The notes below the pieces were generated by a model, which saw only the letters and a program-made list of their open reading frames with translations, had not been told where the DNA came from and did no database searches. From the IMG/VR virus record IMGVR_UViG_3300035670_000045, positions 62,001-126,000 of that record: a stretch of DNA of 64,000 nt; one strand, written 5' to 3'. The stretch is from a virus. Positions 38,173 through 62,483 of the stretch are shown piece after piece; the stretch's first letter is position 1, and every line of letters begins with the position of its first letter. Both the position numbers and the translations under genes were made by a program.

Positions 38173-38820
38173 ATGATCCAAGGAGTTTCCTCCGATCTGT
38201 CCGTCGGGCTTCAGCCGTATGCCGACGTGGTAGTGGAGTGGGTACCCAACCCAGGGGTACAGCTCAGCGAATTTCCAGGCGATCTGTCCGTGTGCCTGTC
38301 GATGTACACGACTATGCCTGGGTACGGTGGGTATGAGATCGCCGTGTTCACCGCACATGCCGTGAGTTCTGACCGCACGCGGGAACGGGCCGTTGTGGAG
38401 TGCTTCCCCTACGCGCACTACGAGCGGCTCGGGGCTTCCGAGGGGCTGTACCACCACTTCATGCGAACCTTGGAGCATGCCGAGCTCCTTGGGCAGGGGA
38501 CGCTCAATCAGTACTTCGGGGATGAGCCTCTTCACTACGGCACTTTCCAGAGTCCGTTTCACCGGATGCTGCAGCAGCTCCTGGAGGTGGAGGAGTACCC
38601 GTCACACCCCGTAGTTGACATCGAGGCAACGCTCGCCTCTTTCCGCGAGAACCCACTCAGGATGCTCGAGCATCTCGAGTTTCGTCATTGGCGAGGATTG
38701 GACCCGCATGGGACGTGCCCTAGCGGGTTCACACACCCTTCCCACCTCTTTGGCCTCGAAGGGTGTGTTTGCATGACAGAGCTCGGAACGTGGAACCGTA
38801 CCTTGTGGGGAGACATGTGA
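38173..38820 (+). CDS. CHCC-module family protein A1, 215 aa
   Basis: First gene of the array. Start ATG 38173 is uncertain, as no good Shine-Dalgarno is visible and GTG 38134 is also open. The C-terminal module is C182-P-S-G-F-T-H188-P-S-H191-L, then C198-V-C200, matching the superfamily register except that the downstream His is missing and its place holds a Trp-rich tail. The N-terminal part lacks the FxWSIxY strand found in later members but has a VCLSMYTTMPGYGGYEIAVF segment of similar hydrophobicity. Most divergent A member. Function unknown. Confidence 0.65.
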   Translation: MIQGVSSDLSVGLQPYADVVVEWVPNPGVQLSEFPGDLSVCLSMYTTMPGYGGYEIAVFTAHAVSSDRTRERAVVECFPYAHYERLGASEGLYHHFMRTLEHAELLGQGTLNQYFGDEPLHYGTFQSPFHRMLQQLLEVEEYPSHPVVDIEATLASFRENPLRMLEHLEFRHWRGLDPHGTCPSGFTHPSHLFGLEGCVCMTELGTWNRTLWGDM

Positions 38821-39404
38821 TGCGCATCCCCTACGACATGTTCAACGCCGTCTGCCACGAGTTCTTCCAGCGTAAGGTGCCCTACTTCTCCCCAAGTGTG
38901 GCAGACAACGCGGAGGATCTGGTCCTGTGCAGTATCCAACGGTTCAAGCGAAGTTCCGTTCTCTTGCAGATGTACGTCCAGATCGAGCCGGGGTGGAAGG
39001 ACGGTACCTTCAATGTGGCCACCGGCTCTTACATCTGGGTACTGCCAAGAGACTATGGGCAGGGTGTGGCCGCATCTATCGCTAAACACTCCCGAAGGCT
39101 GGACCGCGGGAGGTATCGTCCAGCGCAAAACACACTAACGTTCATCTCCCGTCCGTACCCGAGGTTGGTGGCCGCTTGCGTGTACCGGGATTGGTTGAAG
39201 TTCGATCAGCTTCTTTGGGCTGCCGTAACTCGACCGTCCCACGTGATCGATCTTACGTGGTCCGACAGGCCGTCTCACGTGTACCGCGAGGGTTGCCCGG
39301 AAGGACTCCTGCACCCGGCGCATTACGAGCGTGGTGGGTGTCTCTGCTCCACTTCGATGGACAGTGTTGCCCGGGTTTGCTGGGACCTGGAGGACTTTCC
39401 GTGA
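38820..39404 (+). CDS. CHCC-module family protein A2, 194 aa
   Basis: ATG 38820 overlaps the preceding TGA by one base. The C-terminal module is C159-P-E-G-L-L-H165-P-A-H168-Y, then C174-L-C176 (one residue shorter between H and the Cys pair than usual). The region upstream contains SSVLLQMYVQI and YIWVLPRDYGQG, probably equivalent to the two central strands of other members. The tail has a further Cys and Trp but no PLL-x2-W. Function unknown. Confidence 0.7.
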   Translation: MRIPYDMFNAVCHEFFQRKVPYFSPSVADNAEDLVLCSIQRFKRSSVLLQMYVQIEPGWKDGTFNVATGSYIWVLPRDYGQGVAASIAKHSRRLDRGRYRPAQNTLTFISRPYPRLVAACVYRDWLKFDQLLWAAVTRPSHVIDLTWSDRPSHVYREGCPEGLLHPAHYERGGCLCSTSMDSVARVCWDLEDFP

Positions 39405-40048
39405 ACACGATAGATAGCGCATGCCAGTTACGGCACCGGTCGGAGTCGGACGAGCGGTACGCTCAGTGGCTGGCCGGCCTACAGGCGTTCTCTTTCGAAT
39501 TCTCTGAGGCGCCTGCTGCCAGTAGTCACCCCGCCATCGGGCAGTACGTGTACAGGCCCGTGCGTGTTGTCACCGCAGGTACACACCTCCCCTCGGTCAT
39601 GGTGTTCGCCGTCGACATCCTACGGTTCTCGCGCAAGTCACGTGCAGGCACTTTCCACGGGCACTACCTCGTTGCATCCGTACTCAGTGCTGCGCTGCTG
39701 CCACCGCACGTGATTCTTCACGCGGAAATCCTCTACGAGAGTCGGAGGCCGTTCGCGAAGACCCAGAAGGTCAAGAGCAAGTACCGGGAGCTCATCAAGT
39801 ACCTGAGCCGACTACCTTGGGAAGCCCACAAGGTCTCCGTGTCGGAGGAGTGTTACATCCAACGGGCATACGCGGCTAAGATCTACGTACCCGGTGTGCC
39901 CGGAGGCGAAGACGTGCGCACTTCCGGCCCCTGCCGTACTGGTGTTACGCACCCGTACCACTTCAACGCGCTCGGGGTCTGCCTGTGTGGGGTGGACACT
40001 TCCGAGACGCTGCACGGTCCGATTCACGCGGCATGGGGGGTACATTGA
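39401..40048 (+). CDS. CHCC-module family protein A3, 215 aa
   Basis: GTG start in a GTGA overlap. Module: C178-R-T-G-V-T-H184-P-Y-H187-F, C194-L-C196, followed by His at about 205 and a C-terminal W. The central strand is SVMVFAVDILRFSRKS and is followed by a basic segment (KTQKVKSKYRELIKYL) not found in the others. The gene overlaps its neighbour by four bases. Function unknown. Confidence 0.7.
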   Translation: MNTIDSACQLRHRSESDERYAQWLAGLQAFSFEFSEAPAASSHPAIGQYVYRPVRVVTAGTHLPSVMVFAVDILRFSRKSRAGTFHGHYLVASVLSAALLPPHVILHAEILYESRRPFAKTQKVKSKYRELIKYLSRLPWEAHKVSVSEECYIQRAYAAKIYVPGVPGGEDVRTSGPCRTGVTHPYHFNALGVCLCGVDTSETLHGPIHAAWGVH

Positions 40049-40722
40049 TCCCGGTGATAGGAGAGCGTCCGTTGGAGCTCAGACCAATCGAGAAGCACGA
40101 GTTCATTCAGAAGGTACACAGCGCAATTGGGCCCATGTACCGCAGGAGCGGTACGTGGCCCTCCTACGTGTCCTCGATACGGGTCAACGCAGAATGCGCG
40201 TACGTGCAGTGGGTCCGTATGGAGGAGTACCACTGGTTGATCGCGTGTGACGTGTTCAGCGACCATGACGAGGGGTTCATTCACGTGTGGTACCTAGGGG
40301 CGGTACCACGTGCTCTCGAGTACGAGCCAGTCGAGGGGGTGCCCCAGCTGTCCGATAGGCCCGCCATACTCACCACGGCGGTAGTTCGCGGCAGGAAGAT
40401 GTGTCCGACGGCCGACTCTATTCGAGAGGTCTTCAGTGACTTCCGAGCTATCGTAGATGGGATCGTCGCGGGCTACTCCGTGTATGACTTGGAGGGCGCA
40501 TCGGGCAAGCCCAGCACCCTGATCGCCTCCAGGTTCCCATTCTCCCGTCGCAAGCACTTCACGCTGGGCTGGAGCGGTTCCCCGGATGCACCCACGGCGT
40601 GTAAGCGCGGCATCGCACACCCCCATCACTTCGACCATGAGGGGAGGTGCAGATGCTACTCCAACGCTCTCTGGCATGTGCCTCTATTCATGTCGTGGAT
40701 GAAAGAAAGCGTGGTGGACTAG
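40045..40722 (+). CDS. CHCC-module family protein A4, 225 aa
   Basis: TTG 40045 (overlap with stop, GGGGGGT upstream) is chosen; ATG 40033 is an alternative. Central strand is EEYHWLIACDVF, close to the FxWSIxYE of later members, and a D-x-E-G-F-I-H-V-W-Y follows. Module: C186-K-R-G-I-A-H192-P-H-H195-F-D, C202-R-C204, H211-V-P-L, W218. All positions of the register are intact. Function unknown. Confidence 0.65.
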   Translation: MIPVIGERPLELRPIEKHEFIQKVHSAIGPMYRRSGTWPSYVSSIRVNAECAYVQWVRMEEYHWLIACDVFSDHDEGFIHVWYLGAVPRALEYEPVEGVPQLSDRPAILTTAVVRGRKMCPTADSIREVFSDFRAIVDGIVAGYSVYDLEGASGKPSTLIASRFPFSRRKHFTLGWSGSPDAPTACKRGIAHPHHFDHEGRCRCYSNALWHVPLFMSWMKESVVD

Positions 40723-41382
40723 ATGACTCCCTTCCGGTTTGACCCATCAGAGCTGGGGCCTCTCGTACAGTCACTCCGTCAGGCAGCAATGTCTGTTGCC
40801 CTCGATTACGGCGCACGCGTAGTACTTCCGAAGGCCAGTCTAAGCGCTTCCACCTCCCCCACGGTGTACGACGTCTACGGGAAGTCGTTCCGATGGTCGA
40901 TCGTGTACGAGCGGGTACTCCACTGGGAAGGTGACCCCAACTCGTTCGACGAGCACCTGTACCTGCTCACGCTTCCGCGGGGTCAAGTCCCCACGACTGT
41001 TTGCATGTACGCGAAGGCGTCGTTCTCGTGTGCCCTCATCCCACCGCCTGACGCCTACGTGCCGTTGCTCCGGAAGGTGTTCTCCGACATCCATCGGTTC
41101 GATTCTGACCCCGTGGCTATCCACGCGCTGGACACGGCCAGGTCCCCGATTTCTCCCATCGGGGTCAACACCCGCAGCGGTTGGAGTGCTGTGGACTACA
41201 TCGACTTCGTTCGCCGTATGAAGTTGACCAGTTCCAGTATGGTTCGTGTTGAGTGTACGCAAGGCATCGTGCACCCTCACCACTTCGATGGCTTCGGGAA
41301 CTGCAGGTGCAGCCGGTATGCCGCCCATCACCGGCCTTTGCTGCGGCAATGGGGCAGGAGGTTTCTTTCCGTTGATCCGTGA
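40723..41382 (+). CDS. CHCC-module family protein A5, 219 aa
   Basis: ATG directly follows the previous TAG. It carries the typical A-subfamily architecture: N-terminal helix, GKSFRWSIVYERV strand (residues ~46-58), a second strand LYLLTLPRG, a helix ending VAIHALD, then module C178-T-Q-G-I-V-H184-P-H-H187-F-D, C194-R-C196, H203-R-P-L-L-x2-W. The module cysteines and histidines match an internal Cys-His-Cys-Cys metal site. Function unknown. Confidence 0.75.
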   Translation: MTPFRFDPSELGPLVQSLRQAAMSVALDYGARVVLPKASLSASTSPTVYDVYGKSFRWSIVYERVLHWEGDPNSFDEHLYLLTLPRGQVPTTVCMYAKASFSCALIPPPDAYVPLLRKVFSDIHRFDSDPVAIHALDTARSPISPIGVNTRSGWSAVDYIDFVRRMKLTSSSMVRVECTQGIVHPHHFDGFGNCRCSRYAAHHRPLLRQWGRRFLSVDP

Positions 41383-41992
41383 ACAAGAACGCCTACGCGC
41401 GCTGGACGTCGTGCGCGAGGTACTTTCTCGTACTTCAATCCCTGACAACATCTTCTGCCGCGTAGCGGACACCGTTACACGCCCATCGGATTACTCCGTA
41501 GAGCTGCTCACGGTGTACGGGCACCAGTACCGTTGGGTAGTAGAGTACTCTCCGTCTGGAAGGTTTGGGATCCCATCCGGCGTGCTACATCTAAACGCAC
41601 AGGCGGCCTGTACGGGTTCTGCGTGGGGGGATCCGCCCAACCATGTGATCTCTCTCGACAAGTACTCCTCCTACTCCCAGAAGTTGGATGGTACTGACGG
41701 GGAGTTGTCCGTCGAAGTAGTGCGCGCCGTACTCCGCTTGGTGTTTCTCCTTGAGGAGGATGAGTCGCGCATCTACGCCCCGCCTTGGACGGTGGAGGGT
41801 ACCGACGTTACTTTCCATGGGGCTAACGGCACGGGTGCCGGGTGGGGGGCGGTAAGCCCTCCCCCTCGTCGTGGGGGGAGTTGTCTCTGTGGCGTACTTC
41901 ACCCCCATCACTTTGACGTGTTTGGCGGGTGTCGGTGCTCGTTGGACGCCCTGATGCATTTGCCTCTCTTGCGGCTGTGGGGGGTAGCATGA
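41372..41992 (+). CDS. CHCC-module family protein A6, 206 aa (TTG start)
   Basis: TTG at 41372 has AGGAGGT nine bases upstream, overlapping the previous gene by 11 bases. Central strand GHQYRWVVEYS; second strand VLHLNAQA; module C171-L-C173-G-V-L-H177-P-H-H180-F-D, C187-R-C189, H196-L-P-L-L-x2-W. An extra Cys (173) lies inside the module. The helix VVRAVLRLVFLLEEDESRIY corresponds to the DPxxIHxLE region of other members. Confidence 0.7.
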   Translation: MIREQERLRALDVVREVLSRTSIPDNIFCRVADTVTRPSDYSVELLTVYGHQYRWVVEYSPSGRFGIPSGVLHLNAQAACTGSAWGDPPNHVISLDKYSSYSQKLDGTDGELSVEVVRAVLRLVFLLEEDESRIYAPPWTVEGTDVTFHGANGTGAGWGAVSPPPRRGGSCLCGVLHPHHFDVFGGCRCSLDALMHLPLLRLWGVA

Positions 41993-42594
41993 GGAATCGA
42001 GGATGGGACCAGGCTCTCTACCTCGAGGTTCGAGAGTTCATTCTGGACGCGGTGTGGTGCCAGTTGGCTTCTACACTCACTCCTGTGGCCTACCGCACAG
42101 TGTTGAGCGTGAGGAGAGGGCCCGAAGGCGGCTGGCTTGTCCTCCGTGTCTTCGGGAAGCTGTACACCTGGGGTCTCCTGTACTCCGCAAGTTTGGGTAG
42201 GGACATGTTTCGTTGGGAAGCTACCCCTGCCCACTGGGCGGATGACGACCCTCCCGCCCCGATCACTCCGTGGTACAGCGCCCAGAGGAGCACTGCGCCA
42301 GGTCACTCGCGCGTAGCCGCCGCCCAGGCCGCAGTGCGTGATCTGCTCGCGGATAGGGCTGACCTCGATGGGGATGTGATGGTGGTTTACTTCCGGAGCT
42401 ACGACAACTCGGACTCCGCTTCCTTACGTGGGCCGGGGTGGGATGCCCTGCGGTTCGACGGTCGCCGGGTAAGCCCGATGCGACCTTGTGCGAAGGGCAT
42501 CGTGCACCCTCACCACTTCGACCGGTACGGGGCATGCCGGTGTGCTTGTAGCGCCTCGCACCATGTCCCGCTCCTTGAGGCGTGGGACTTCTGA
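41989..42594 (+). CDS. CHCC-module family protein A7, 201 aa
   Basis: ATG in an ATGA overlap. The central strand is GKLYTWGLLYSASL; module C167-A-K-G-I-V-H173-P-H-H176-F-D, C183-R-C185-A-C187, H192-V-P-L-L-x2-W. The additional Cys187 makes a C-x-C-x-C. The middle helix (RVAAAQAAVRDLLADRAD) is the equivalent of the region before the module in other members. Function unknown. Confidence 0.7.
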   Translation: MRNRGWDQALYLEVREFILDAVWCQLASTLTPVAYRTVLSVRRGPEGGWLVLRVFGKLYTWGLLYSASLGRDMFRWEATPAHWADDDPPAPITPWYSAQRSTAPGHSRVAAAQAAVRDLLADRADLDGDVMVVYFRSYDNSDSASLRGPGWDALRFDGRRVSPMRPCAKGIVHPHHFDRYGACRCACSASHHVPLLEAWDF

Positions 42595-42611
42595 CCTTGG
42601 AGGTCGGGCCT

Positions 42612-43283
42612 ATGCATGATTCATCAGAGCGTGTGCAGGAGTTCGTGGTTTCCCACGTGACGCAGACCATGCGCGGGGTCATGTACTCCGTGGTTTTGCC
42701 GTACATTCCCCACACTCACAAGGTATTGGGGGATGCGCGCGTAGTGCTGGGCATCTTCTGCTCCGAGTTCCGTTGGAGCATCACGCACCACATGCGCCAC
42801 ATCGCTCGATCAGTGGGGGACCGCCTCCCATCTCCTATCGTCATGCACAGTTTTGGGCTATGGGTCACGTCCAACGCTTCGGTAGAGTCGGGCGTACCTG
42901 ATGACTACCCGAGCCCCATGTTTGGGACGGCCGTATTTGCATCAAGTCTGGCACCTATCGACCCATGGGTCATTGGGTTGGACATACTTCTCGACTTCAT
43001 CGTGGAGTGCGAGCTCGATCCAAGTCACATCCACACACTGGACGGTGCGCAGGGCGTTGCCCACCTTGATCGGGGCCAACCCAACTTGGAGGTAGTCCGT
43101 CCGGCAAACTCCTTCAGTGGATGGGATGCCCGGACGTACGGGTTTGGCGTCCCATTCCCACAAGAGCCCCCGTGCGCGCTCGGGGTGACCCACCCTCACC
43201 ATTTCGACCGTGCAGGGAACTGCCGGTGCCCCCCATGTGCCACCAAACATCAACCCCTACTCCGAAACTGGGTGCGACTTTGA
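42612..43283 (+). CDS. CHCC-module family protein A8, 223 aa
   Basis: ATG 42612 has GGAGGT about nine bases upstream; an in-frame ATG at 42582 is less likely. Central strand SEFRWSITHHM; DPSHIHTLDG in the helix before the module; module C188-A-L-G-V-T-H194-P-H-H197-F-D, C204-R-C206, H213-Q-P-L-L-x2-W, with an extra Cys209. The DPxxIHxL element is shared with A5, A10, A11 and A12. Function unknown. Confidence 0.75.
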   Translation: MHDSSERVQEFVVSHVTQTMRGVMYSVVLPYIPHTHKVLGDARVVLGIFCSEFRWSITHHMRHIARSVGDRLPSPIVMHSFGLWVTSNASVESGVPDDYPSPMFGTAVFASSLAPIDPWVIGLDILLDFIVECELDPSHIHTLDGAQGVAHLDRGQPNLEVVRPANSFSGWDARTYGFGVPFPQEPPCALGVTHPHHFDRAGNCRCPPCATKHQPLLRNWVRL

Positions 43284-43286
43284 GCT

Positions 43287-43916
43287 ATGTACTTGCGGTC
43301 TGAGCTCGACACGGATGAAGAGGAGCAGGCGTACGCAGCCCTCGAAGAGGTGATGTCTCTTCCGGAGTTCGGTCATCTGAACTGCAGATGGCCAGGACCT
43401 TGCGGTGCTCCGGGGGAGGTGCACCTTCTACGCGTGTACACTAACTTGTACGTTTGGGATGTGTTCTACGCCAAACCCAGTCCGGACGTTTCCCGTGTGG
43501 TGACGTTGCACTGCGGAATCCAGCTCGGTACACGGCACCCATCGAAGGGGCCTGGCCCAGTTGTGTTTGACATCTGGATGGAGGACCTGCCCGGCTACCA
43601 TAGCCTCACGTACATCAGCGCGCTGGCTGGCATGTTGCGTGCCGTGTTACGGCTCATTGTGCGTCTGGAGTCCGACGTTCGCGCCCTCTACTGGCGGGTA
43701 CCTCGGGTAGACGGCACCTGGGCGAACTACCGGGGGCGCGATCTCGTGTCAGCCCACTGGGAGCGTGAGGTGTTCGGGGCTGATCTTCGGCGGCGGTGTG
43801 CGCAGGGTGTAGTCCACCCCGACCACTTCGATGTGTCGGGTCATTGCAGGTGTTCCCCCGATGTGGATCTTCATCTGCCCTTGATGCGGGCGTGGGGGTT
43901 ACGTTCCCATGTATAA
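43287..43916 (+). CDS. CHCC-module family protein A9, 209 aa
   Basis: ATG 43287. Central strand TNLYVWDVFYAKP, second strand VVTLHCGIQLG, long helix LAGMLRAVLRLIVRLESDVRALYW, then module C171-A-Q-G-V-V-H177-P-D-H180-F-D, C187-R-C189, H196-L-P-L-M-x2-W. The gene overlaps the next by eight bases. All register positions are intact. Function unknown. Confidence 0.75.
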   Translation: MYLRSELDTDEEEQAYAALEEVMSLPEFGHLNCRWPGPCGAPGEVHLLRVYTNLYVWDVFYAKPSPDVSRVVTLHCGIQLGTRHPSKGPGPVVFDIWMEDLPGYHSLTYISALAGMLRAVLRLIVRLESDVRALYWRVPRVDGTWANYRGRDLVSAHWEREVFGADLRRRCAQGVVHPDHFDVSGHCRCSPDVDLHLPLMRAWGLRSHV

Positions 43917-44574
43917 GAGGTCGGAGCTGCCCATCACCCCCAACGAGGCCCGTACGCTGGAGCGGCAGATCCGGGAACAGGTCACATCCCAAGTCTTGGG
44001 CTCGAGTACGGCGGGTCGGCCAGGCGTTCATGTGGTTGGCGTCAATTCGGACCGCCTCTCTCCCAAGTCGATTGTGTGGATACAAGGCGCACTCTTCCTG
44101 TGGTCGATCTCCTACGAACGATGTGAGGAGCTATGGGTCGGCCCTGGGGAGGACGTCTTCGGGGGGAAGTTCGAGATGCTGGCGTTGGGTGCCAACGCCC
44201 TGCGGGAATCACAAGACGGCGTTGCGTTGGTGAGTGTCCGAGTCGCTGTCGCACAAGACCAAGTAGGCGCGGCAGTCCTTGGCCCTGAGCTGAGCAAGCT
44301 TGTCCACCTCATTTCTCGTTGCGAGCTTGCGCCCGAGCTCATTCACGAGCTCGAGCAGTCATGGGGAGGCTCCACCGCGCTTAACGAGGCCCCGTTCCTC
44401 CAAAGTCAGTTCGAGGACGGGTGGGCAGCACACGCTCCTTCAGAGAGGAAAGAGCCATGTCGTTGCTCCCGCGGGATAGTGCACCCGTTTCACTTCGACA
44501 TGCGGGGTCACTGCCGATGTGACTCCAACGCCACGTTCCACAAGCCACTTCTTCGTCACTGGCTCCGCACTTAG
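43909..44574 (+). CDS. CHCC-module family protein A10, 221 aa
   Basis: ATG 43909. Central strand GALFLWSISYERCEE, helix APELIHELEQ, module C186-S-R-G-I-V-H192-P-F-H195-F-D, C202-R-C204, H211-K-P-L-L-x2-W; a Cys two residues before C186 gives C-x-C at the start as well. The typical A-subfamily layout is complete. The gene is followed by AGGAGGT for the next one. Confidence 0.75.
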   Translation: MYKRSELPITPNEARTLERQIREQVTSQVLGSSTAGRPGVHVVGVNSDRLSPKSIVWIQGALFLWSISYERCEELWVGPGEDVFGGKFEMLALGANALRESQDGVALVSVRVAVAQDQVGAAVLGPELSKLVHLISRCELAPELIHELEQSWGGSTALNEAPFLQSQFEDGWAAHAPSERKEPCRCSRGIVHPFHFDMRGHCRCDSNATFHKPLLRHWLRT

Positions 44575-44584
44575 GAGGTGCACC

Positions 44585-45217
44585 TTGTCGTACCGCACCT
44601 TGACCCCATTACCCACAAGTGTCGGCAGCCGTATTGCGGAAGAGCTCATGGAGGGTGTACAGGCGAGGGTGGGTGAGTTCATCCCCTCTTTCTTCTTCAG
44701 TGAGTACCGCGTGTCTATCGAGGTCAGCGGTCGCCACTTTCTGTGGTCCATTGTGTACGAGATGTGGTGCTCGGATGAGGATACGCACCCTGGCATCGGG
44801 GACGGCATCCTGGAGCTACGCGCCTGGCCTTGGGGGTACAGCGGCAGTACCCCAGCGGTAGTGGCACGCGTGCCCGTCCCAATTCGAGATGGTCACCGTG
44901 ACTTCTCGCGGTTGGACAGGATCTGTAGCGCTCTGACACGGTGCGATGCCGACCCGCGGAACATCCACCAGTACGAGGGTACGGGGCGGTACCCCCTGTT
45001 AGTGTCAGAGATTCCGGGCATCCTCCGTACTGCCCCCGGGTGGCGAGCCACGGGGAAACCTCCGAGCCCACCCACCCCTTGTCCGAAGGGTGTAGCCCAC
45101 CCTTTTCACTACGACTGCTTCGGTTCGTGTCGGTGTGCTTCCGATGTCGTCATCCACTACCCGCTGCTCCAGCAGTGGCTAAACCCCACCGTGGCACCCC
45201 CACGTGGCTCTCCGTAG
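44585..45217 (+). CDS. CHCC-module family protein A11, 210 aa (TTG start)
   Basis: TTG at 44585 has AGGAGGT five bases upstream. Central strand GRHFLWSIVYEMWCSDEDTH, second strand GILELRAWPWG, DPRNIHQYEG, module C166-P-K-G-V-A-H172-P-F-H175-Y-D, C182-R-C184, H191-Y-P-L-L-x2-W. It is very close to A12: both have RxLTPLPxSV at the N-terminus and the WCSD-x-DTHPG-x-GDGIL block, so the pair is a recent tandem duplication. Function unknown. Confidence 0.75.
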   Translation: MSYRTLTPLPTSVGSRIAEELMEGVQARVGEFIPSFFFSEYRVSIEVSGRHFLWSIVYEMWCSDEDTHPGIGDGILELRAWPWGYSGSTPAVVARVPVPIRDGHRDFSRLDRICSALTRCDADPRNIHQYEGTGRYPLLVSEIPGILRTAPGWRATGKPPSPPTPCPKGVAHPFHYDCFGSCRCASDVVIHYPLLQQWLNPTVAPPRGSP

Positions 45218-45803
45218 TCTGACCCCTCTGCCCCGCAGTGTTCGCAGGTACATCGCGGATGTTATCGAGAGGGGCCTCCCATCGACGGTGTGGGGGAGGT
45301 ATTTCGTCAACCCCCTCATCTCTTCCGAGAATCGCGCGGGAGTAGAAATCTCGAGTCGGTACTTCCTCTGGTCCATCCTGTACGAGATGTGGTGCTCGGA
45401 TGGGGACACCCACCCCGGGGTTGGTGATGGCATTCTGAAGCTGTGGGCCTGGCCGTGGGGGTGCGCACGCACTACCCCCGCTCTCGTCGCAACTGTTCCC
45501 GTGAATAGCTCCCGTGACTTTTCCGGGCTGCCCCACCTATGCGACGTCCTCCTCGCCTGTGAAGAGAATCCGTGCCACATCCACAAGTTTGAAAGCGCAC
45601 ATCTGCACTCTACTAGGGTGCAGAGTATCCACGGCATACCGGTGGTGCACTCGGGGTGGCAAGCTTCCGGCAAAGTCGGGGTGCCGCCCTTCGCTTGCCC
45701 CCACGGGCTTGTCCACCCCTACCACTATGACTTCTTCGGCCGGTGCCGTTGTGAGTCGAACGCCGTCATTCACTACCCACTGCTTGTCCAGTGGGGTTTC
45801 TGA
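45204..45803 (+). CDS. CHCC-module family protein A12, 199 aa
   Basis: GTG start within the last codons of A11. Central strand SRYFLWSILYEMWCSDGDTH, GDGILKLWAWPWG, ENPCHIHKFES, module C165-P-H-G-L-V-H171-P-Y-H174-Y-D, C181-R-C183, H190-Y-P-L-L-x2-W. Closest paralogue is A11. It ends the twelve-gene array; the next gene (45820) has no such module. Confidence 0.75.
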   Translation: MALRSLTPLPRSVRRYIADVIERGLPSTVWGRYFVNPLISSENRAGVEISSRYFLWSILYEMWCSDGDTHPGVGDGILKLWAWPWGCARTTPALVATVPVNSSRDFSGLPHLCDVLLACEENPCHIHKFESAHLHSTRVQSIHGIPVVHSGWQASGKVGVPPFACPHGLVHPYHYDFFGRCRCESNAVIHYPLLVQWGF

Positions 45804-45819
45804 TTTTTGGAGAAAGAAC

Positions 45820-47217: not shown

Positions 47218-47220
47218 GAG
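47211..47220 (+). promoter_or_regulatory. GGGATAAGAG promoter candidate
   Basis: Exact copy of the minus-strand consensus. The TAA in the motif is also the stop codon of gene 45820. A hairpin follows between this motif and the next gene. Confidence 0.6.
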
Positions 47221-47238
47221 TACGGGAACACCCACCGG

Positions 47239-47288
47239 GGCTGTGAGTACTTCCGCACGCCGGGGTACTCACAGCCTTTCCTTTTAGG
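47239..47288 (+). terminator. hairpin in the leader: attenuator or terminator
   Basis: A perfect 12-base stem, GGCTGTGAGTAC/GTACTCACAGCC, with a 14-base loop is followed by TTTCCTTTTAGG. It lies downstream of the promoter motif at 47211 and upstream of the ATG at 47297, so it either terminates the preceding unit or attenuates the new one. Confidence 0.6.
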
Positions 47289-47296
47289 AGAGTCAC

Positions 47297-47812
47297 ATGG
47301 CCAAGTCGAACTTCGGCAACATCGTCCCCAATCCGCATCCGAAGACCGTTCCAGTCATGAAGTTGCCCGTGTCGTTCAGGCACATCTGTGAGGTCTTCCC
47401 AGAGCTCTCCGACATGTACGTGGGGAACTTCATCGACTGGGCCGGCGTTGGGCAGTACAACGGGCTGTACCATTCCTACCGCTGTGTGTCCGGGGCCAAG
47501 CTCACGTTGCTCGACGCGTTCCGTGCGGTCGAGCGGATCGCCAAGGAGACCGACGAGCTCCGCGCATCGTCCGGGGAGATTGCGTTGCGGTTTCACACGC
47601 TCTTGGTGGACATCCCAAAGCAGATTCTCGAGGAGTACGAGCAGCGGTGCCAGAAGCGCATCGAGTGGGAGGTGGTGGAGGACATGCGCTCGTTTGCCAG
47701 TGAGGAGTTTCACGGGCGCGGGTGTAGCAAGAGCACGTGCTCCGAGGATTGTCTGTGCGCCCCCTGCCGCGCTCGAGTTGCGCTGCAGCGTATGGCGGAG
47801 AACGTGCCGTGA
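47297..47812 (+). CDS. hypothetical protein with C-terminal Cys cluster, 171 aa
   Basis: ATG with AGGAG upstream. Residues ~1-140 are helical and hydrophobic/aromatic; the C-terminal end is Cys-rich (GCSKSTCSEDCLCAPCRARV, five Cys in 18 residues), a probable metal-binding or disulfide element different from the CHCC module. It begins an operon with two B-subfamily genes directly downstream (GTG overlap). Function unknown. Confidence 0.7.
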   Translation: MAKSNFGNIVPNPHPKTVPVMKLPVSFRHICEVFPELSDMYVGNFIDWAGVGQYNGLYHSYRCVSGAKLTLLDAFRAVERIAKETDELRASSGEIALRFHTLLVDIPKQILEEYEQRCQKRIEWEVVEDMRSFASEEFHGRGCSKSTCSEDCLCAPCRARVALQRMAENVP

Positions 47813-48552
47813 GTCGTAGGGCGCGGATGTTCTGGCCCCTGACGTTGGGGGACGAAGTTCTGAAGTTTGACTCGGAAGCCATGTTCGCGGAGTACCAGGA
47901 GGGCGTGTGGTTCGTCGTTCGGTTTCGACCAAGTGGCCGCACACACTTCGTGTGCGACGTTCGTAGGTTGGATCTTTCGGAAGTCGAACCGGGCGATGTG
48001 CAGTGTGCGCTGCGCTCGTTTGGGTACGTCATGGGTCACGACGAGGACATCCGAGCGTTGGGGAAGGGCGTTCGGCCCTACTACCCGCTGGACGGGCAGA
48101 GCGTCCGTCTTGGGAAGGACGGCATCGCCCTGAAGGTTGCTTGTGCGATCGAGTACGGGTTGGGTGCAGTGATCCACACGGCTATGGGGCACACTCGGCA
48201 CGAAGTGCTCAACTCGGCGATCATTGCCGCCAACCGGCTGATGGACCGCCCCTCGGAGCTCGAGGAGGTGTTGGACCTTTCGCACGAGTGGTACGGGGGG
48301 ACCGTTCGGGAAGTCGGGGCGGGGTACTTAGGGTCCCCGAAAGAGCAGCGGGTGCTCGAGTACCACATCGACCCCTTCCCGGGCTGTACGCTCGGCATCC
48401 TTCACCCCACACACTACTGGCCCAACCGCAGGTGCAAGTGCTCGGATCGGGTACATCGTGACGTGATGCACGAGCTTGGGTGGTCCGACCTCGTGACGTT
48501 GTCCTCTATTCCGTTGCGCAAGTTCACGCCGGAAGACACGAGGGTGCTGTGA
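47809..48552 (+). CDS. CHCC-module family protein B1, 247 aa
   Basis: GTG start in a GTGA overlap. N-terminal part with GVWFVVRFRPSGRTHF and CDVRRLDLSE, the B-subfamily core; then a helix ending EVLNSAIIAANRLM. Module: C193-T-L-G-I-L-H199-P-T-H202-Y-W, C209-K-C211, H216 and ELGW. The residues after the module (KFTPEDTRVL) extend beyond the A-type end. Function unknown. Confidence 0.75.
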   Translation: MSRRARMFWPLTLGDEVLKFDSEAMFAEYQEGVWFVVRFRPSGRTHFVCDVRRLDLSEVEPGDVQCALRSFGYVMGHDEDIRALGKGVRPYYPLDGQSVRLGKDGIALKVACAIEYGLGAVIHTAMGHTRHEVLNSAIIAANRLMDRPSELEEVLDLSHEWYGGTVREVGAGYLGSPKEQRVLEYHIDPFPGCTLGILHPTHYWPNRRCKCSDRVHRDVMHELGWSDLVTLSSIPLRKFTPEDTRVL

Positions 48553-49295
48553 GCGGGAAAGTTGGCCCCACCAAGGATTGGCAGTTACTTCCGAAGCCAG
48601 GGCACGGGTTTATCGGGCAGCCCGACACGTACGCTCGGCGGCATGGTGCGGGGGTTTGGTACATACTTCGATTCCGAAAGCCGCACCCACAGGACATCGA
48701 CCAGGGGTCCACGTGCGACGTTCGTCGACTGGACCTGTCGGAGACGAGCAAAGAGGAGCTCGAGAAGGCTCTTCACTTTTGCGGAATCGTGAAGGACCGC
48801 GTGGGGCGCTTGTGGGTAGATCCGGGTCATGGGGCCGAGCTTGTCGGGAACTACCGAGATGTCATCGAGGCCATCGAAGTGGCCTGCGCAAACCGGTACG
48901 GGCTTGGTGTGTTGCTGCGTACGATTCACCGGAAAGACCCGGCGAAAGCATACCGGGAGGCTCGTCGTGCTGCTGAGCGGTTCATGTCCAGCCCGGCGAC
49001 GCTTGAAGCTGAGCTCGATCGACTTCTCGAGCATGACGTGGGGAGCTATCTGCGGGGGCTCGGGATCAGCCTTACCCATATGGTGGAGACCCGCAGAATG
49101 GGCCCCGCAGTCATGCCCCCTAGTTGCACGATGGGCATCACTCATCCGAAGCACTACTGGCGGAACGGCAGCTGTAAGTGCGCAAACAAGGTACATCGAA
49201 GTGTGATGCTCGAGCTCGGGTGGGTGGGCTCGCGTAGGCTGCAGCACATCCCTGTGCAGCCGTTTTCACCAGAGGTGATCAGGCCATGGCGATGA
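48549..49295 (+). CDS. CHCC-module family protein B2, 248 aa
   Basis: GTG overlaps the stop of B1. Core: GVWYILRFRKPHPQDID then TCDVRRLDLSET; helix AYREARRAAERFMSSPATLEAELD; module C193-T-M-G-I-T-H199-P-K-H202-Y-W, C209-K-C211, H216-R-S-V-M-x-ELGW. It is the closest relative of B1; the shared R-x-D-L-S-E core and the spacing show tandem duplication. Function unknown. Confidence 0.75.
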   Translation: MSGKVGPTKDWQLLPKPGHGFIGQPDTYARRHGAGVWYILRFRKPHPQDIDQGSTCDVRRLDLSETSKEELEKALHFCGIVKDRVGRLWVDPGHGAELVGNYRDVIEAIEVACANRYGLGVLLRTIHRKDPAKAYREARRAAERFMSSPATLEAELDRLLEHDVGSYLRGLGISLTHMVETRRMGPAVMPPSCTMGITHPKHYWRNGSCKCANKVHRSVMLELGWVGSRRLQHIPVQPFSPEVIRPWR

Positions 49296-50110
49296 ACTAC
49301 GTGCGTGCGCCCCTCTTCTGGGAGATCGTCACTGGGGTCCCTCGTCCTGGTGGGTACCAAATATGGTCGATGGGCCCTGGCGAGTACCAAGGGGGCGTGT
49401 GGAAGCTACTGCACACTGGGAGCACGTGGGTGGTCATCCGGGTTGGTGAGTTCGGCACGGGAGCCGACATGAAGTTCCATGCCACGGCTTACTTGATTGA
49501 TCTGCGTGAGACACCCGACGCGGTGATCGACTACGCTCTTCTACAGGCTGGGATCCTTCGCGGTCCGAACGGGGATTTGCACTACGTGAAGTGGGGCCTT
49601 GCATTGGCCCCAGTGCCTGGGGGGATGATCTGTCGATGGCCTGGAGCATCGCGCGTCATCGTGGCCTCCATGGCTGCCAGCAGCATGGGGGTGTGGTTGC
49701 ACAGTTGTGGCGGCCCCAGTGCGCAGTCTGTATTCGACGTCGCCCAGGATCAGGTCGATGTGTACCTCCGTGACCCGGTTACCCTCGAGGCCCACTTGGA
49801 GTCCAAGTACTCGCATTCGGGTACGACTCACCGGGAGGCGGCGGCGGGGTACTCCGTTGACCGTTCGGGCTGGGGGCTCTCGCACATTAAACCGCTGGGA
49901 CGGCCAGCCCGCCCCCCTTGCCCTCTTGGTGTCACCCATCCCGGGCACTACTGGCAGGACGGCTCCTGTCGGTGTGACGACCATATGCACCACGAGGTCA
50001 TGGGTCAGTTGGGGTGGAAAACGTTCGATGCGTCCAAACTTCCGCCCCGCAAGAAGTTCTATCCGCGGCTTGGCCCGCTTGACTGCATTACCTCTACGGT
50101 ACCCTCATGA
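49286..50110 (+). CDS. CHCC-module family protein B3, 274 aa
   Basis: ATG 49286, or 49292, after a GAGGTGATCAGG leader. Core: GVWKLLHTGSTWVVIRVGEF and ATAYLIDLRETPD; helix FDVAQDQVDVYLRDPVTLEAHLE; module C212-P-L-G-V-T-H218-P-G-H221-Y-W, C228-R-C230, H235-H-E-V-M-x-QLGW. It has a longer C-terminal tail (FDASKLPPRKKFYPRL) like B1 and B2. Function unknown. Confidence 0.75.
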   Translation: MAMNYVRAPLFWEIVTGVPRPGGYQIWSMGPGEYQGGVWKLLHTGSTWVVIRVGEFGTGADMKFHATAYLIDLRETPDAVIDYALLQAGILRGPNGDLHYVKWGLALAPVPGGMICRWPGASRVIVASMAASSMGVWLHSCGGPSAQSVFDVAQDQVDVYLRDPVTLEAHLESKYSHSGTTHREAAAGYSVDRSGWGLSHIKPLGRPARPPCPLGVTHPGHYWQDGSCRCDDHMHHEVMGQLGWKTFDASKLPPRKKFYPRLGPLDCITSTVPS

Positions 50111-55344: not shown

Positions 55345-55568
55345 GCTCCACTGAGGTCCCCAGTGTGGCTCTGTCCGCCGGCGGCGGGGAATTCCCGGTG
55401 CTCGCGGCGGGGGACCGTGTGCACGCGATCGGTACCCCACACAACCAAGTCGGTGAAGTGATCTCTGTTCTGGGCCCCGAGTACATCGGGTGGGCGTACG
55501 TGCGGTGGCCGGATTGTACGGACTGGGCGCTGGCGTCCACTCTTCGGGTGGTGAGCTATGCCCGTTAA
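55341..55568 (+). CDS. small hypothetical protein, 75 aa
   Basis: GTG in a GTGA overlap. A small beta-type protein (FPVLAAGDRVHAIGTPHNQVG ... YIGWAYVRWPD) reminiscent of SH3-like barrels in its GDRV-x-A-I-G pattern, but too short for a family call. It overlaps the B4 gene by 11 bases. Confidence 0.6.
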   Translation: MSSTEVPSVALSAGGGEFPVLAAGDRVHAIGTPHNQVGEVISVLGPEYIGWAYVRWPDCTDWALASTLRVVSYAR

Positions 55569-56319
55569 GCTCGTCGAAAGCAATTCTGACGGAGGGTGGT
55601 GCCCCACCGGCTGGTTCCCGTTGCCTTCCATTTCGGTCAGGCGGCCTGTCTACGGAGATGACGCGATGTGGGCGCGTCGTATGTGGGATGGCTCGTACTT
55701 CGTGCTGAAGATCCAGAAGACCAGTCGAATCCGTGCGGTGTTCAAGTGTGTCCTCGTACGCATCGATCTTCGGGAAACCACACAGCAAGCGCTGAATCGT
55801 GCGCTGGCACGCCTTGGCTCCGGCTTCCGTTTGCGGGGCAAGCAGCTTTACACGCATTTTCGGAATGAGCTGGCGTTTCCCCGTCTGAGTGACGTGCGGC
55901 TCAAGTGCCTGGAGGCGCTGGCTCAGGACGGCCGCGGGGCCGTATTGCATACGGAGGTCGGTAGAGTCGCAGGTCGGGTTTTGGCGAAGTGCGAGCGCGC
56001 AGCGTACGGGCTCGAGCACGACCCCGTTCGTCTCGAGCGCGAGCTCGACAAGCCGTGGACCTACCATGCGACCATTTGGACAGGCACCAACCGTGAGTAC
56101 GGCGCTGGCGCAGGCGACCAGATGTTTCAAGTCCCACTTGCCACGCGTACGTGTAGAGCGGGTCTTCTGTTTCCAGAGCATTACTGGGCCAACGGGGGGT
56201 GCAAGTGTGGCGACGCTGTGCACCGTCAGACTCTGCTGTGGTGGGGAATCCCGACGGACGATCAGTACAGGGAAGTCCCACCCCCTTCCATTCGGGATGT
56301 TGTTCAATGGGACGTCTAA
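55558..56319 (+). CDS. CHCC-module family protein B4, 253 aa
   Basis: ATG 55558. Core: MWDGSYFVLKIQ and CVLVRIDLRETTQQALNRAL, matching the B-subfamily R-x-D-L-x-E motif; helix VAGRVLAKCERAAYGLEHDPVRLERELD; module C199-R-A-G-L-L-F205-P-E-H208-Y-W, C215-K-C217, H222. The first module His is replaced by Phe, which argues that it is not an essential metal ligand. It lies far from B1-B3, separated by unrelated genes. Confidence 0.75.
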   Translation: MPVKLVESNSDGGWCPTGWFPLPSISVRRPVYGDDAMWARRMWDGSYFVLKIQKTSRIRAVFKCVLVRIDLRETTQQALNRALARLGSGFRLRGKQLYTHFRNELAFPRLSDVRLKCLEALAQDGRGAVLHTEVGRVAGRVLAKCERAAYGLEHDPVRLERELDKPWTYHATIWTGTNREYGAGAGDQMFQVPLATRTCRAGLLFPEHYWANGGCKCGDAVHRQTLLWWGIPTDDQYREVPPPSIRDVVQWDV

Positions 56320-57788: not shown

Positions 57789-57797
57789 GGTAATCAC

Positions 57798-58250
57798 ATG
57801 AGCAGACACAGTAATTACGCCACACAGAACATCCCCCCGTGCACGGGATGTGGCGGACCCAACAGTTATTGGCACACGGCACACTACTTGTGCCCGAGGT
57901 GCTGGTTCCTCCTCTGTCGTGAGCGTCGCGTCCATTTGGAGGACGCGACGGACCAAATGGTGTCGCTGTACGGTGTAACGTGCTCGGGGCACGTGGGCAG
58001 CGGACCGTTCTTCCTTGCGTCCCGAGACATCGTGGGTGCGCGCACAGAGTGGCTTCACGGGGAGATGTTCCCGTTCGGCGAGGGGCAGCAGCGCTTCGTG
58101 GGGATGAGGTGGGAGCGCGACGTGCTCAAAGCCTTCCGCTTCCGTACGGAGGAGGAGGCGCTTCTCGCTGCCAAGTCCCCTGTCCCCATGTACCTCGATG
58201 GGTACGTGGACTACAAAGTGCGGGTGATCCCGCACGCGGCGGTGAAGTGA
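57798..58250 (+). CDS. zinc-ribbon hypothetical protein, 150 aa
   Basis: ATG 57798 right after the terminator. Cys-x2-Cys (CTGC, residues 15-18) and Cys-x2-Cys (CPRC, near 32-35) form an N-terminal zinc ribbon with an intervening His. The rest is beta-rich and aromatic. It is followed by the B5 gene (GTG overlap). Possibly a nucleic-acid-binding protein; unrecognised. Confidence 0.7.
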   Translation: MSRHSNYATQNIPPCTGCGGPNSYWHTAHYLCPRCWFLLCRERRVHLEDATDQMVSLYGVTCSGHVGSGPFFLASRDIVGARTEWLHGEMFPFGEGQQRFVGMRWERDVLKAFRFRTEEEALLAAKSPVPMYLDGYVDYKVRVIPHAAVK

Positions 58251-58885
58251 GTCTATTACCCCCGTGGGGTGGGTCGCTCTTTCAGTCGGACCCGTGGAGG
58301 TCCTACCCCCCTATGCACCCCCCGTTCCTCCACGTGTGGCACCGGTCCATCTCGTACTACAGCACACCCATTGGGGAGCACCTCGTGGCGGACATCCGCA
58401 GGTTCCCAGGCGCGATTCCTGAGTACCTCGGCGTGTTGACCTACGTGAATCTGCAGGTCGTCACGGAGGACTACTTGGCGGGGATCGCTCACCGGTACGG
58501 GTACAACTACACGTACCACTCCCCCATCCTTACCCCCACGCAGCATCACTGGCCGTACTGCCCGCTGACGACACTCGCCGCATTCGCGGCCATGACCAAC
58601 GACCACCCGCAGGTGGAGAGGATCGCATTGCCGAGTGTGGACGCGGTGCGTGCACACCTGGAAGAAGCCGCGGATGCACTCATCATGTCCCCCATGCAGC
58701 TGGAGGACCGGGTCCGCGCTTGGTACCCAGACGGGTTCTATCCTGCACCGGAACGCATCCCGAGGCGCACATGTCCGAGGGGTGTACTGTACCCAGGGCA
58801 CTACTCCATCGATGGTGGATGCCGGTGTGTAGAGCCCTTGCATACGCGTGCGGGTCAACAGCGTTGGGGTATCATCCTGGGATGA
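58247..58885 (+). CDS. CHCC-module family protein B5, 212 aa
   Basis: GTG in a GTGA overlap. The N-terminal part is aromatic, with YYSTPIGEHLVADIRRF in place of the B core; helix ALIMSPMQLEDRVRAWY; module C176-P-R-G-V-L-Y182-P-G-H185-Y, C192-R-C194, H199. The first His is replaced by Tyr. The sequence before the module is divergent from B1-B4, so it is a distant member. Function unknown. Confidence 0.7.
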   Translation: MSLLPPWGGSLFQSDPWRSYPPMHPPFLHVWHRSISYYSTPIGEHLVADIRRFPGAIPEYLGVLTYVNLQVVTEDYLAGIAHRYGYNYTYHSPILTPTQHHWPYCPLTTLAAFAAMTNDHPQVERIALPSVDAVRAHLEEAADALIMSPMQLEDRVRAWYPDGFYPAPERIPRRTCPRGVLYPGHYSIDGGCRCVEPLHTRAGQQRWGIILG

Positions 58886-59240: not shown

Positions 59241-59255
59241 CATGTGAGGTGATCG

Positions 59256-59567: not shown

Positions 59568-59878
59568 CCGTGAAGGACTTCGCGAGTGTGTTGTTCTCCA
59601 CCGAGTCGGCGTTGCTCGTGATGGCTACCCTTCTCCTGCTCGTGTCCCACTTGTTTCATGTGCGGCTTCGGCAGTACCGGCAGTGGCAGGCCCACTGCAC
59701 ACATATCGAGAGGCAGATCCGGGACCTGGACCGACTCATTCATCGACACTGGGTGCTGTACCTCACCTACCTGCACCGTGGGGAGGACAAGAAGGCGATG
59801 GCCGAGTTGGACTTTATCGAAAAATGGGAGGCGGACGTGCAAGGGCTGGAGATCGAGCTCCGCTACTGGACGAAGTGA
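59564..59878 (+). CDS. membrane-anchored coiled-coil protein candidate, 104 aa
   Basis: GTG start in a GTGA overlap. Residues ~13-32 (ESALLVMATLLLLVSHLFHV) form an N-terminal membrane segment; the remaining ~70 residues are a helix (QWQAHCTHIERQIRDLDRLIHR ... WEADVQGLEIELRYW). A type II-like membrane protein of unknown function. Confidence 0.65.
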   Translation: MTVKDFASVLFSTESALLVMATLLLLVSHLFHVRLRQYRQWQAHCTHIERQIRDLDRLIHRHWVLYLTYLHRGEDKKAMAELDFIEKWEADVQGLEIELRYWTK

Positions 59879-60672
59879 TGGGGGCGTCTCGTCATCCAAG
59901 TTTCAAACGCATCATTTCTGCTCTTCGAACATCTCCGGCAGGCCTGTCCAGGCGGATGGATTATCTACTCTCTCCCGACTGGGATCTGTTCCGTGACGGG
60001 TTCTCTCCGAGCGATGTAGCCGTCGATCCGAGTGGGAACACGTTGAGTTTGTATCCTCTCTCGAACACGGAGTGGTACGGCGTGCTGTACCACGGCAGCA
60101 AGCACACCGCCCTCTCTGGGGATTGTCATGTCCTGCGGGTTGACTTGACCGAAGCTCACCCAACCAGGGTGCAGTCCGCTATCCGCAAGCTCGTCCAAGA
60201 CAGCCTGTCAGGCCCTGAGGTCGTGGACGCGGCGAAAGCCGTTTCCGCTGGAGTAGTAGGGCGTGCCCTTGCCCGGAACGCCGTGGGTGCCGTCGTTCTT
60301 CACGAGCACGCATTCGCTACACTGGCGTACTTCGCTACCGGACCTATGTACGAAGTTCTGGGGGCTGCGAGGGAATCGGCCAGGTACTTTCTCCGTAGCC
60401 CCTACAGTGTAGAGCAACTGCTCGAGCAGGTGTCCGGACGGTACACCATGCGGGACTACGGTACGTTTCCGTACCGTAGGGACTCGCCACCGAAGTCCAG
60501 TGTGCAGGGTACGAGTGCGTGCCCTCTTGGGATCACAGCCCCCCAGCACTACTGGGTGGACGGTCAGTGCAAGTGCGGGGACGTTGTGCATTCCAGGTCA
60601 ATGCAAGAGCTATGGTCCATTCAGTCCTCGGCCCAGAATCAACGGTATGTTGTCCGGTCACCGCGCCGGTGA
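59878..60672 (+). CDS. CHCC-module family protein B6, 264 aa
   Basis: ATG overlaps the previous TGA by one base. Core: EWYGVLYHGSKHTALSG and CHVLRVDLTEAHP, matching the B-subfamily motif (R-x-D-L-x-E, with V); helix AARESARYFLRSPYSVEQLLEQ; module C215-P-L-G-I-T-A221-P-Q-H224-Y-W, C231-K-C233, H238 and ELW. The first module His is Ala here. A positive register otherwise. Function unknown. Confidence 0.75.
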   Translation: MGASRHPSFKRIISALRTSPAGLSRRMDYLLSPDWDLFRDGFSPSDVAVDPSGNTLSLYPLSNTEWYGVLYHGSKHTALSGDCHVLRVDLTEAHPTRVQSAIRKLVQDSLSGPEVVDAAKAVSAGVVGRALARNAVGAVVLHEHAFATLAYFATGPMYEVLGAARESARYFLRSPYSVEQLLEQVSGRYTMRDYGTFPYRRDSPPKSSVQGTSACPLGITAPQHYWVDGQCKCGDVVHSRSMQELWSIQSSAQNQRYVVRSPRR

Positions 60673-60689
60673 TCTTCACGAGGTTTGTC

Positions 60690-60944
60690 ATGGAAAAGGA
60701 TGTGGCTCGTCTCGAGTACCGGCTCATGCTGCTGGTGCTGCTGGTGTCGTACGTGTCGATCATCATCGGGCAGGCTTCATCCTGGCTCGAGTGGGGTTGT
60801 GGTTCCGTGGTGCTACTCCAGCTGACGATCGGCGTGTACGTCGTGTTGGGGGACATCCGGGACATCTGCCGCGTTTGGGTTCTGCACGAGTTGCTCCAGG
60901 AGCTGCACCGCCCTCTGTGGCAAGGTAGGTCGGCTAGTGAGTAG
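60690..60944 (+). CDS. membrane protein candidate, 84 aa
   Basis: ATG with GAGGT upstream. Two hydrophobic segments (LMLLVLLVSYVSIIIGQ and CGSVVLLQLTIGVYVVL) suggest a two-pass membrane protein. A charged, helical end follows. Function unknown. It partly overlaps the B7 gene. Confidence 0.65.
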   Translation: MEKDVARLEYRLMLLVLLVSYVSIIIGQASSWLEWGCGSVVLLQLTIGVYVVLGDIRDICRVWVLHELLQELHRPLWQGRSASE

Positions 60945-61668
60945 CCGTATCCGGGACCGGCCCGACGCCGTCACACTTATTGACGAGTGGGGGACTATAC
61001 TCCCTTCGCAGGTCACGCGCGGGTGGTCGCGCACAACTTTCGGCGATTCGTTGCCCATATACTACCGAGACGATCCTCCGGCTCCGTTGGTGGTGCTTTG
61101 CCTGCGGGAGGAGACAGCCCACGGGTTCGCTGTGGAGGTCCACGTCGTGCCCTACATCCTCATCAACAAGGCATCCGGGGCAAGGCTTGTACGCGAGTAC
61201 CAGAAGAAATGGCGGGTGGAACTGAGTAAGGATACGCAGGAGCGCGCGCTGTTCTCCCAGATGCTTCGAGAGTTCGGCAACTTTAGCGCTCACAGTCGTG
61301 TTGTGTGCGGCAAGACACTACGCGAGGCGAAGACGGCTGCGATGGTGGAGGGGAGACGTCTGCAGGCCAACCTGGAGTGGCTTTTCACTCTTTACTGCCA
61401 ACACCAGCCTTTTGTAGCGGAAGAACGCCCAGTGGCGTGCCCTGCTGGGATCATTCACCCCACTCACTTCAGCACGGGCGCAAGGTCCTGCATGTGCGGC
61501 ATTTTCGAGTACGAATCAACACAGCGCAAAGTGTGGGGTGCCCCCTCGTGGGTGGGGAGGTACCGTAAGCACCTTGTCCGTACATGGAGAGAGATGCGCA
61601 AGCTGAAGGTGCTTGGTGTTGACTTTGGTAGCCGCGAGCTCGACAAGCTCGATGATCGGAGCCCATGA
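60937..61668 (+). CDS. CHCC-module family protein B7, 243 aa
   Basis: GTG 60937. The N-terminal part includes LVVLCLREETAHGFAVEVHVVPYILINKA; helix LREAKTAAMVEGRRLQANLEWLF; module C168-P-A-G-I-I-H174-P-T-H177-F, C185-M-C187 (one residue longer before the Cys pair), with no clear downstream His. The C-terminus is a long basic helix. A divergent member. Function unknown. Confidence 0.7.
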   Translation: MSSRIRDRPDAVTLIDEWGTILPSQVTRGWSRTTFGDSLPIYYRDDPPAPLVVLCLREETAHGFAVEVHVVPYILINKASGARLVREYQKKWRVELSKDTQERALFSQMLREFGNFSAHSRVVCGKTLREAKTAAMVEGRRLQANLEWLFTLYCQHQPFVAEERPVACPAGIIHPTHFSTGARSCMCGIFEYESTQRKVWGAPSWVGRYRKHLVRTWREMRKLKVLGVDFGSRELDKLDDRSP

Positions 61669-62483
61669 ACCGCGACAAAAAGAACCCCCCTTCCATCGGG
61701 GAGATGCTCACCGACATTCGGGAAGAGTGGGTCACAACACCTCCTGATCTGCTGTGGCAATTGGGTCCGCCCGCTGGGGCGACGGACGAAGAGTCCAGCG
61801 GCTGGGAGTACCCCGTGTGGTTTTTCCCGTTGCAGCACCATCCTGGTGGGTTCGCGCTACTGCGGGGGTATGCTCACTCGGGCCTCACGAACGACTGGGG
61901 TGAGCCTCTTGTGCAGGCCACGTTGAGCGTGTTGTTCGTGGACGAGGTGCACTACCTCACCGTAAAGGACGCTCTTGACCGTGCCCGCATGGAGATGACG
62001 CTCGACCACAGGTCAACTTACGGCGTCTCCATTCACCCTCGGCACACGCGTGCACCCGTTGGGCTCACATACACCCAGCGACTTGCGCTGATGCACGCGC
62101 TGGTGAAGTACGGGCACATGGGGGAGGGACTGCTGACGACGCGTACCCATGACCTGGCGGCACTTCGGGAGCAGGTTTGTGAGAAGGTGCGTGAATGGTC
62201 TACCCCGGAGGGGCTCTACCGGTTGGACAGACAGCTCGAGCAGGCGCTCTGCCTCTCGTTGCTAGGGGGCCTGGGCCCCACGGACGTCGGTTGCCCCAAT
62301 GGGGTTGTTCACCCGCTGCATTGGAGGGGGTACACCTGCCGTTGCTTGGACGTGCGCCACGCACCCGTAGCAGGCGGGTGGTGGGTGTTGCAGCCTGAGG
62401 GCAGGTGTGTGCGCCCACTGGGGGGATCGGGGTGGCGGGAGGTGCTGGACCTTCACTGCCCCGAAGTGGACTTCGTACTCTGA
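61665..62483 (+). CDS. CHCC-module family protein B8, 272 aa
   Basis: ATG in an ATGA overlap. The N-terminal half is unlike the other members (WEYPVWFFPLQHHPGGFALLRGYAHSG). The module is C210-P-N-G-V-V-H216-P-L-H219-W, C225-R-C227, H232, with one residue fewer than usual before the Cys pair, then GGWW and a Cys-containing tail. It is the last family member seen in the window. Confidence 0.7.
   Translation: MNRDKKNPPSIGEMLTDIREEWVTTPPDLLWQLGPPAGATDEESSGWEYPVWFFPLQHHPGGFALLRGYAHSGLTNDWGEPLVQATLSVLFVDEVHYLTVKDALDRARMEMTLDHRSTYGVSIHPRHTRAPVGLTYTQRLALMHALVKYGHMGEGLLTTRTHDLAALREQVCEKVREWSTPEGLYRLDRQLEQALCLSLLGGLGPTDVGCPNGVVHPLHWRGYTCRCLDVRHAPVAGGWWVLQPEGRCVRPLGGSGWREVLDLHCPEVDFVL

Follow-up and report, generated by a model that had tools for sequence, protein, structure and literature searches.

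What do the many related genes at one end of a large phage genome encode, and what might so many of them be for? The genes lie in a stretch of 64,000 nucleotides (hereafter the window), which covers positions 62,001 to 126,000 of the IMG/VR record IMGVR_UViG_3300035670_000045, a linear record of 126,743 bp from an uncultured bacterial virus that is a large tailed-phage genome. An open reading frame check found 20 plus-strand genes of one family at window positions 38173-62483, all ending in a common Cys/His register, as a previous model-made reading of the letters alone (the sequence-only reading) had claimed. That count stood, and a further member has to be added to it, as a profile built from the 20 members detected a 21st gene, D1, which is cut by the window end. 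The 21 genes share a short C-terminal module and diverge strongly before it. They are as follows.

A1, 38173..38820, plus strand: 215 amino acids (aa), ends CPSGFTHPSHLFGLEGCVC...W; start codon uncertain
A2, 38820..39404, plus strand: 194 aa, CPEGLLHPAHYERGGCLC, the shortest gap; its ATG overlaps the stop of A1
A3, 39401..40048, plus strand: 215 aa, CRTGVTHPYHFNALGVCLC; its GTG start overlaps the stop of A2
A4, 40045..40722, plus strand: 225 aa, group A
A5, 40723..41382, plus strand: 219 aa, group A
A6, 41372..41992, plus strand: 206 aa, group A; start uncertain
A7, 41989..42594, plus strand: 201 aa, group A
A8, 42612..43283, plus strand: 223 aa, group A
A9, 43287..43916, plus strand: 209 aa, group A
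A10, 43909..44574, plus strand: 221 aa, group A
A11, 44585..45217, plus strand: 210 aa, group A; structure modelled
A12, 45204..45803, plus strand: 199 aa; neighbour and closest paralogue of A11 (51% identity)
B1, 47827..48552, plus strand: 241 aa, group B; structure modelled
B2, 48549..49295, plus strand: 248 aa, group B; neighbour and closest paralogue of B1 (38%)
B3, 49292..50110, plus strand: 272 aa, group B
B4, 55558..56319, plus strand: 253 aa, group B; Phe replaces His before Pro
B5, 58247..58885, plus strand: 212 aa, B-type module; Tyr replaces His before Pro; part before the module outside the profile groups
B6, 59878..60672, plus strand: 264 aa, group B; Ala replaces His before Pro; module closely like the stand-alone gene described below
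C1, 60937..61668, plus strand: 243 aa; module followed by a longer tail; part before the module outside the profile groups
C2, 61665..62483, plus strand: 272 aa, CPNGVVHPLHWRGYTCRC; part before the module outside the profile groups
D1, the 21st member, window 63905-64606 (record 125905-126606), plus strand: 233 aa, CPRGIVHPLHYGDMWAGCRC...W; only its first 96 bases (63905..64000) lie inside the window

The coding span of the 21 genes is 14.4 kb, or about 11% of the record, and with a linear record that stops 137 bases past D1, the array may extend further. Several members begin with GTG or TTG, and these starts are uncertain. The pattern C-x2-G-x3-P-x-H-x(6,12)-C-x-C matched 18 of the 20 genes, all on the plus strand, where 0.0 matches were expected from 20 mononucleotide shuffles; a version with a wider gap gave exactly 20 matches in the window and no copy over the remaining 62 kb of the record. 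Within A1-A12 and B1-B3 the genes are joined by start/stop overlaps or by gaps of no more than about 20 bases, an arrangement that fits coupled expression.

Alignment of the module in the 21 members gave the consensus C-x2-G-x3-P-x-H-[FYLW]-x4-6-C-x-C, followed by Trp. Seven residues are the same in all 21 members, namely Cys1, Gly4, Pro8, His10, the two Cys of C-x-C and the Trp towards the end, and apart from the start Met nothing outside the module is invariant across all members. A His precedes Pro in 18 members, a His follows C-x-C in 18, and the two Cys of C-x-C enclose an Arg or Lys in 17. The sequence-only reading had named the same Cys, Gly, Pro and His positions, which hold in the 21st member as well, and was right about the Phe, Tyr and Ala substitutions in B4, B5 and B6; however, it called the Trp only frequent, and its gap of 5-7 residues after the aromatic position has to be corrected to 4-6 (x4 at 39294.. 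and 62292.., x6 at 61438.. and in D1). Judged by residue invariance, the module most likely holds a zinc site with Cys1, His10, Cys17 and Cys19 as ligands, and the nearly constant His after C-x-C is a possible alternative ligand.

The module comprises about 35-40 residues and the variable region before it about 150-215. Although all members are connected through the module by BLASTP, with many within-group matches spanning the whole length, identity drops from about 50% in the module (48-52%) to only 20% (group A) or 24% (group B) before it. Hidden Markov models (HMMs) of the region before the module united A4-A12 and, separately, B1-B4 with B6, and in hmmsearch they joined neither groups A and B to each other nor either group to A1-A3, B5, C1, C2 or D1; profile-profile comparison with hhalign likewise failed to join groups A and B. 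The strong upstream divergence that had been proposed is thus confirmed, whereas a family with a single fold is not borne out by these profile methods. Because at least two groups cannot be joined, one constant module with several variable domains appears better supported than one fold. An anchored test, in which everything but the module was shuffled, was weakly positive in one direction: a few members retained additional signal just before the module (B3 scored p 0.002 with the profile of group A; the combined Fisher p was 0.003 one way and 0.10 the other way), so that common ancestry of the whole proteins is possible.

Adjacent genes are more alike than expected from random order (mean 54.9 bits vs. 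34.7 in permuted orders; none of 20000 permutations was as high), and this clustering of paralogues by gene order argues that the array arose by tandem duplication, with the gene-order signal weak within group A alone (p 0.08). The overall ratio of nonsynonymous to synonymous substitution rates (dN/dS, NG86) was 0.25 for A11/A12 and 0.36 for B1/B2, the two closest pairs, both adjacent; it was 0.11 and 0.18, respectively, in the module and 0.30 and 0.44 before it, values that are rough because dS was 1.5-2.5, near saturation. Purifying selection is clear in both pairs and is weaker before the module. Hence the rapid diversification suggested from the letters alone holds insofar as the upstream parts are far more divergent, whereas dN/dS well below 1 in the two closest pairs gave no sign of positive selection. 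As a separate observation, the genes at 45820-47217, directly after A1-A12, and 50107-50928, directly after B1-B3, may be diverged paralogues of each other (23% identity over 303 columns, collinear, E 0.001-0.002), which hints that an array block and its downstream gene were duplicated as a block.

Does the module occur elsewhere? When IMG/VR was searched with a loosened DNA pattern, three hits came back, one of them real, namely the following gene in a 130 kb record.

G032 (IMGVR_UViG_3300044705_000115): stand-alone module gene, 51 aa, MRVRLSTCPLGILAPQHFREDGTCRCDDPKHVEMKRWGWVWNERQGRWEAP, found by pattern and profile

The gene matched a family profile built without it at E 1.6e-9, although the pattern had already selected it, and it also agrees at positions outside the pattern (the Gly before C-R-C, the later His and the Trp). 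Its frame overlaps both neighbours (ATGA and TGATG). With the form C-x2-G-x3-P-x-H-F-x5-C-R-C...H...W it keeps every invariant residue of the module and is 29-50% identical to the modules in the window; unlike these, it has no N-terminal domain, is present in a single copy and belongs to a phage whose large terminase (TerL) is only 24% identical. This stand-alone occurrence is new in the present analysis, and since the module exists by itself as a 51-aa gene in a distant phage, it is probably an autonomous domain, which was most likely fused to other sequences in the array lineage or lost them in the G032 lineage. Peptide and DNA patterns run over IMG/VR yielded no relative other than G032. 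Among the rejected candidates, the IMG/VR hits L014 and L118 were stop-broken chance matches, L013 was an unrelated frame, L119 was probably due to chance, and L123, a Micromonospora candidate, was an unrelated membrane protein with a short string in common.

The members resemble no recognized family, as the sequence-only reading had also remarked: Pfam, PHROGs, NCBIfam (modules searched), PADLOC (full proteins searched) and a PDB sequence search gave no significant match, and no similar phage family was found in the literature searched. Profile searches did not split the genes into known families, and the one kin module, first picked out by the DNA pattern, was that in G032. RINGv (RING-variant, PF12906) hit one member only, below its curated cut-off (E 2 for the full length, 0.21 for the module), and PHROG 7369 (63 positions, function unknown) matched B4 residues 216-252 non-significantly (E 0.068), touching one of the 20 members and only its C-x-C and tail. 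The structure model of A11, built from 21 sequences, had a mean predicted local distance difference test score (pLDDT) of 72.8 and a predicted template modelling score of 0.71, and it runs from a long helix through five strands and two helices to a linker of poor prediction quality, and then to the module with a terminal helix; local confidence in the module was low to moderate. The B1 model had an overall pLDDT of 63.5, with block means of 88-93 over residues 191-230, which cover the module and its helix. Foldseek found nothing at E <= 0.001 for these models of moderate or low confidence, neither against PDB (A11 and B1) nor against BFVD (A11 only).

We also compared the array with related genomes. 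A terminase search gave 57 contigs, one of them 99% identical but only 36 kb long (G001); the remaining relatives were about 46-59% identical, and several were 100-195 kb long. Five sister genomes carry many homologues, in conserved order, of genes in record 0-97.6 kb, and no homologue of any called frame beyond 97.6 kb (about window 35.6 kb), the array included. The full-family profile found a member in none of 29 sister records, while the same approach found 21 in the home record, and the module profile had no real match over 39 sister records. No paralogue family in any of the five sisters has more than three members, whereas the same test joins 14 array members in the home record. By these comparisons the array region is lineage-specific and accessory. 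No relatives were seen among cultured phages by tblastn (only rows at E 1-9), none among plasmids, none in bacterial genomes with the strict pattern, and none in 396 genomes of Micromonospora's phylum, a search run without a positive control.

The rest of the record encodes a gpA-like TerL, a fused beta/beta' RNA polymerase and a DnaB-like helicase, and beside the array lie non-structural genes (for a RadC-like JAB protein and a DnaQ-like exonuclease). Further features are listed here.

Record 20049-26603: fused beta/beta' RNA polymerase gene, with an intein-like insert carrying a LAGLIDADG domain
L008:2074-4533, minus strand: 819-aa DnaB-like helicase carrying an insert that resembles a homing endonuclease
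Record 44321-47569: 1082-aa protein with an N-terminal ferritin-like domain (E 1.1e-7)
Window 21019-24963: helicase gene, 1314 aa, best sister matches 56-62%, at varied positions
Window 47237-47278: strong inverted repeat of 17 pairs in the space that separates the gene ending at 47217 from the one that follows, immediately upstream of the B block
Window 50925-51416: protein with a RadC-like JAB domain, encoded within the array region (E 2.5e-14)

The insert in the DnaB-like helicase is likely a second intein in this phage, and the varied positions of the sister matches suggest that 21019-24963 is a mobile or intein-bearing stretch. The inverted repeat is a candidate terminator or processing site; promoter and terminator scans showed no sigma-70-like site and no shared upstream motif.

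What, then, might the array do? Given that a constant, metal-type module is more constrained than the varied remainder, and that many coupled genes lie in an accessory region, we tentatively favor, at somewhat less than even chances, a zinc-stabilized docking module common to adaptors with different target-binding parts, which act in host takeover or counter-defence. The module would fold around one zinc ion and serve as the constant docking piece for one partner of phage or host origin, the variable parts would bind different targets, and the translationally coupled genes would give the phage a set of adaptors or inhibitors for either purpose. Zinc, docking, targets and the timing of expression are each what we infer here, and the adaptors or host targets named in the sequence-only reading are reasonable to suppose. 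Several points weigh against this picture: the array members may be redundant copies; the wide spread of net charge, from -15 to +11.5, fits varied targets and proves nothing about them; PADLOC gave no match, though its library covers defence rather than counter-defence; and a single fold, diverged to an extreme degree, may underlie all the variable parts, as the weak signal in the anchored test would allow, which would weaken the notion of different targets. In a bolder version, one zinc module not described before, which exists elsewhere as a small protein in its own right, would have been joined to several N-terminal domains unrelated to one another and multiplied into 21 or more genes. All members would dock on a single partner and bring the same machinery to different targets in the host, as a phage equivalent of viral repertoires of modular adaptors; as a whole this seems unlikely to us.

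Other explanations read the same features differently. A nucleic-acid-binding zinc finger, through which the proteins would regulate host transcription or, for example, the multisubunit-type RNA polymerase of the phage, would suit a small Cys/His module with Arg or Lys between its last two Cys in 17 of 21 members, the many basic C-terminal regions and the presence of the fused beta/beta' enzyme; yet the same range of overall charge and the lack of any match to helix-turn-helix or other DNA-binding families make it doubtful. Packaging of the proteins in the virion, or their ejection, with the module as a packaging tag, is quite unlikely: varied cargo under one constant C-terminal tag is the architecture to be expected, and all array genes lie on the plus strand, as do most conserved genes in record 17-83 kb, but the array sits apart from the conserved block that holds terminase and tail-like genes and adjoins RadC-like and exonuclease genes. 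Invariant His and Cys would also be found at a catalytic metal site, as in an enzyme family (e.g., a nuclease or hydrolase) acting on many substrates. However, a module of about 35 residues that occurs alone as a 51-aa gene and lacks an invariant acidic residue, with only the start Met invariant outside it, speaks against catalysis, and we rank the enzyme and HNH readings as highly improbable because no motif, HNH or other enzyme family matched. Equally improbable is a selfish or nearly neutral tandem expansion at a flexible genome end, with little function for individual genes. The occurrence of the array in one phage so far and the tandem gene-order signal agree with it, while three observations do not: all 21 frames are intact, with low pairwise identity (51% in the closest pair); dN/dS stays below 1 in the two pairs open to the test; and every member keeps the module invariants.

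An expansion past 20 paralogues within a single phage appears unusual, judged by the five sisters. Finding the binding partner of the module would make the role of all 21 genes testable at once, and the stand-alone copy in G032 offers a minimal domain for structure work.

Small zinc-binding modules include treble clef, zinc knuckle and RING-like types. The present module is like these in being Cys/His-rich, about 35-40 residues long and, in the B1 model, followed by a short helix after the last ligands; it differs in that its first half-site holds a single Cys, a Gly taking the place of the second, and in that no profile matched significantly. In working principle only, the ankyrin proteins of poxviruses, whose C-terminus carries a constant F-box-like domain, offer an analogy for the array: they too are many paralogues per viral genome that combine a variable target part with a constant C-terminal recruiter, although they belong to a eukaryotic virus and have other folds.

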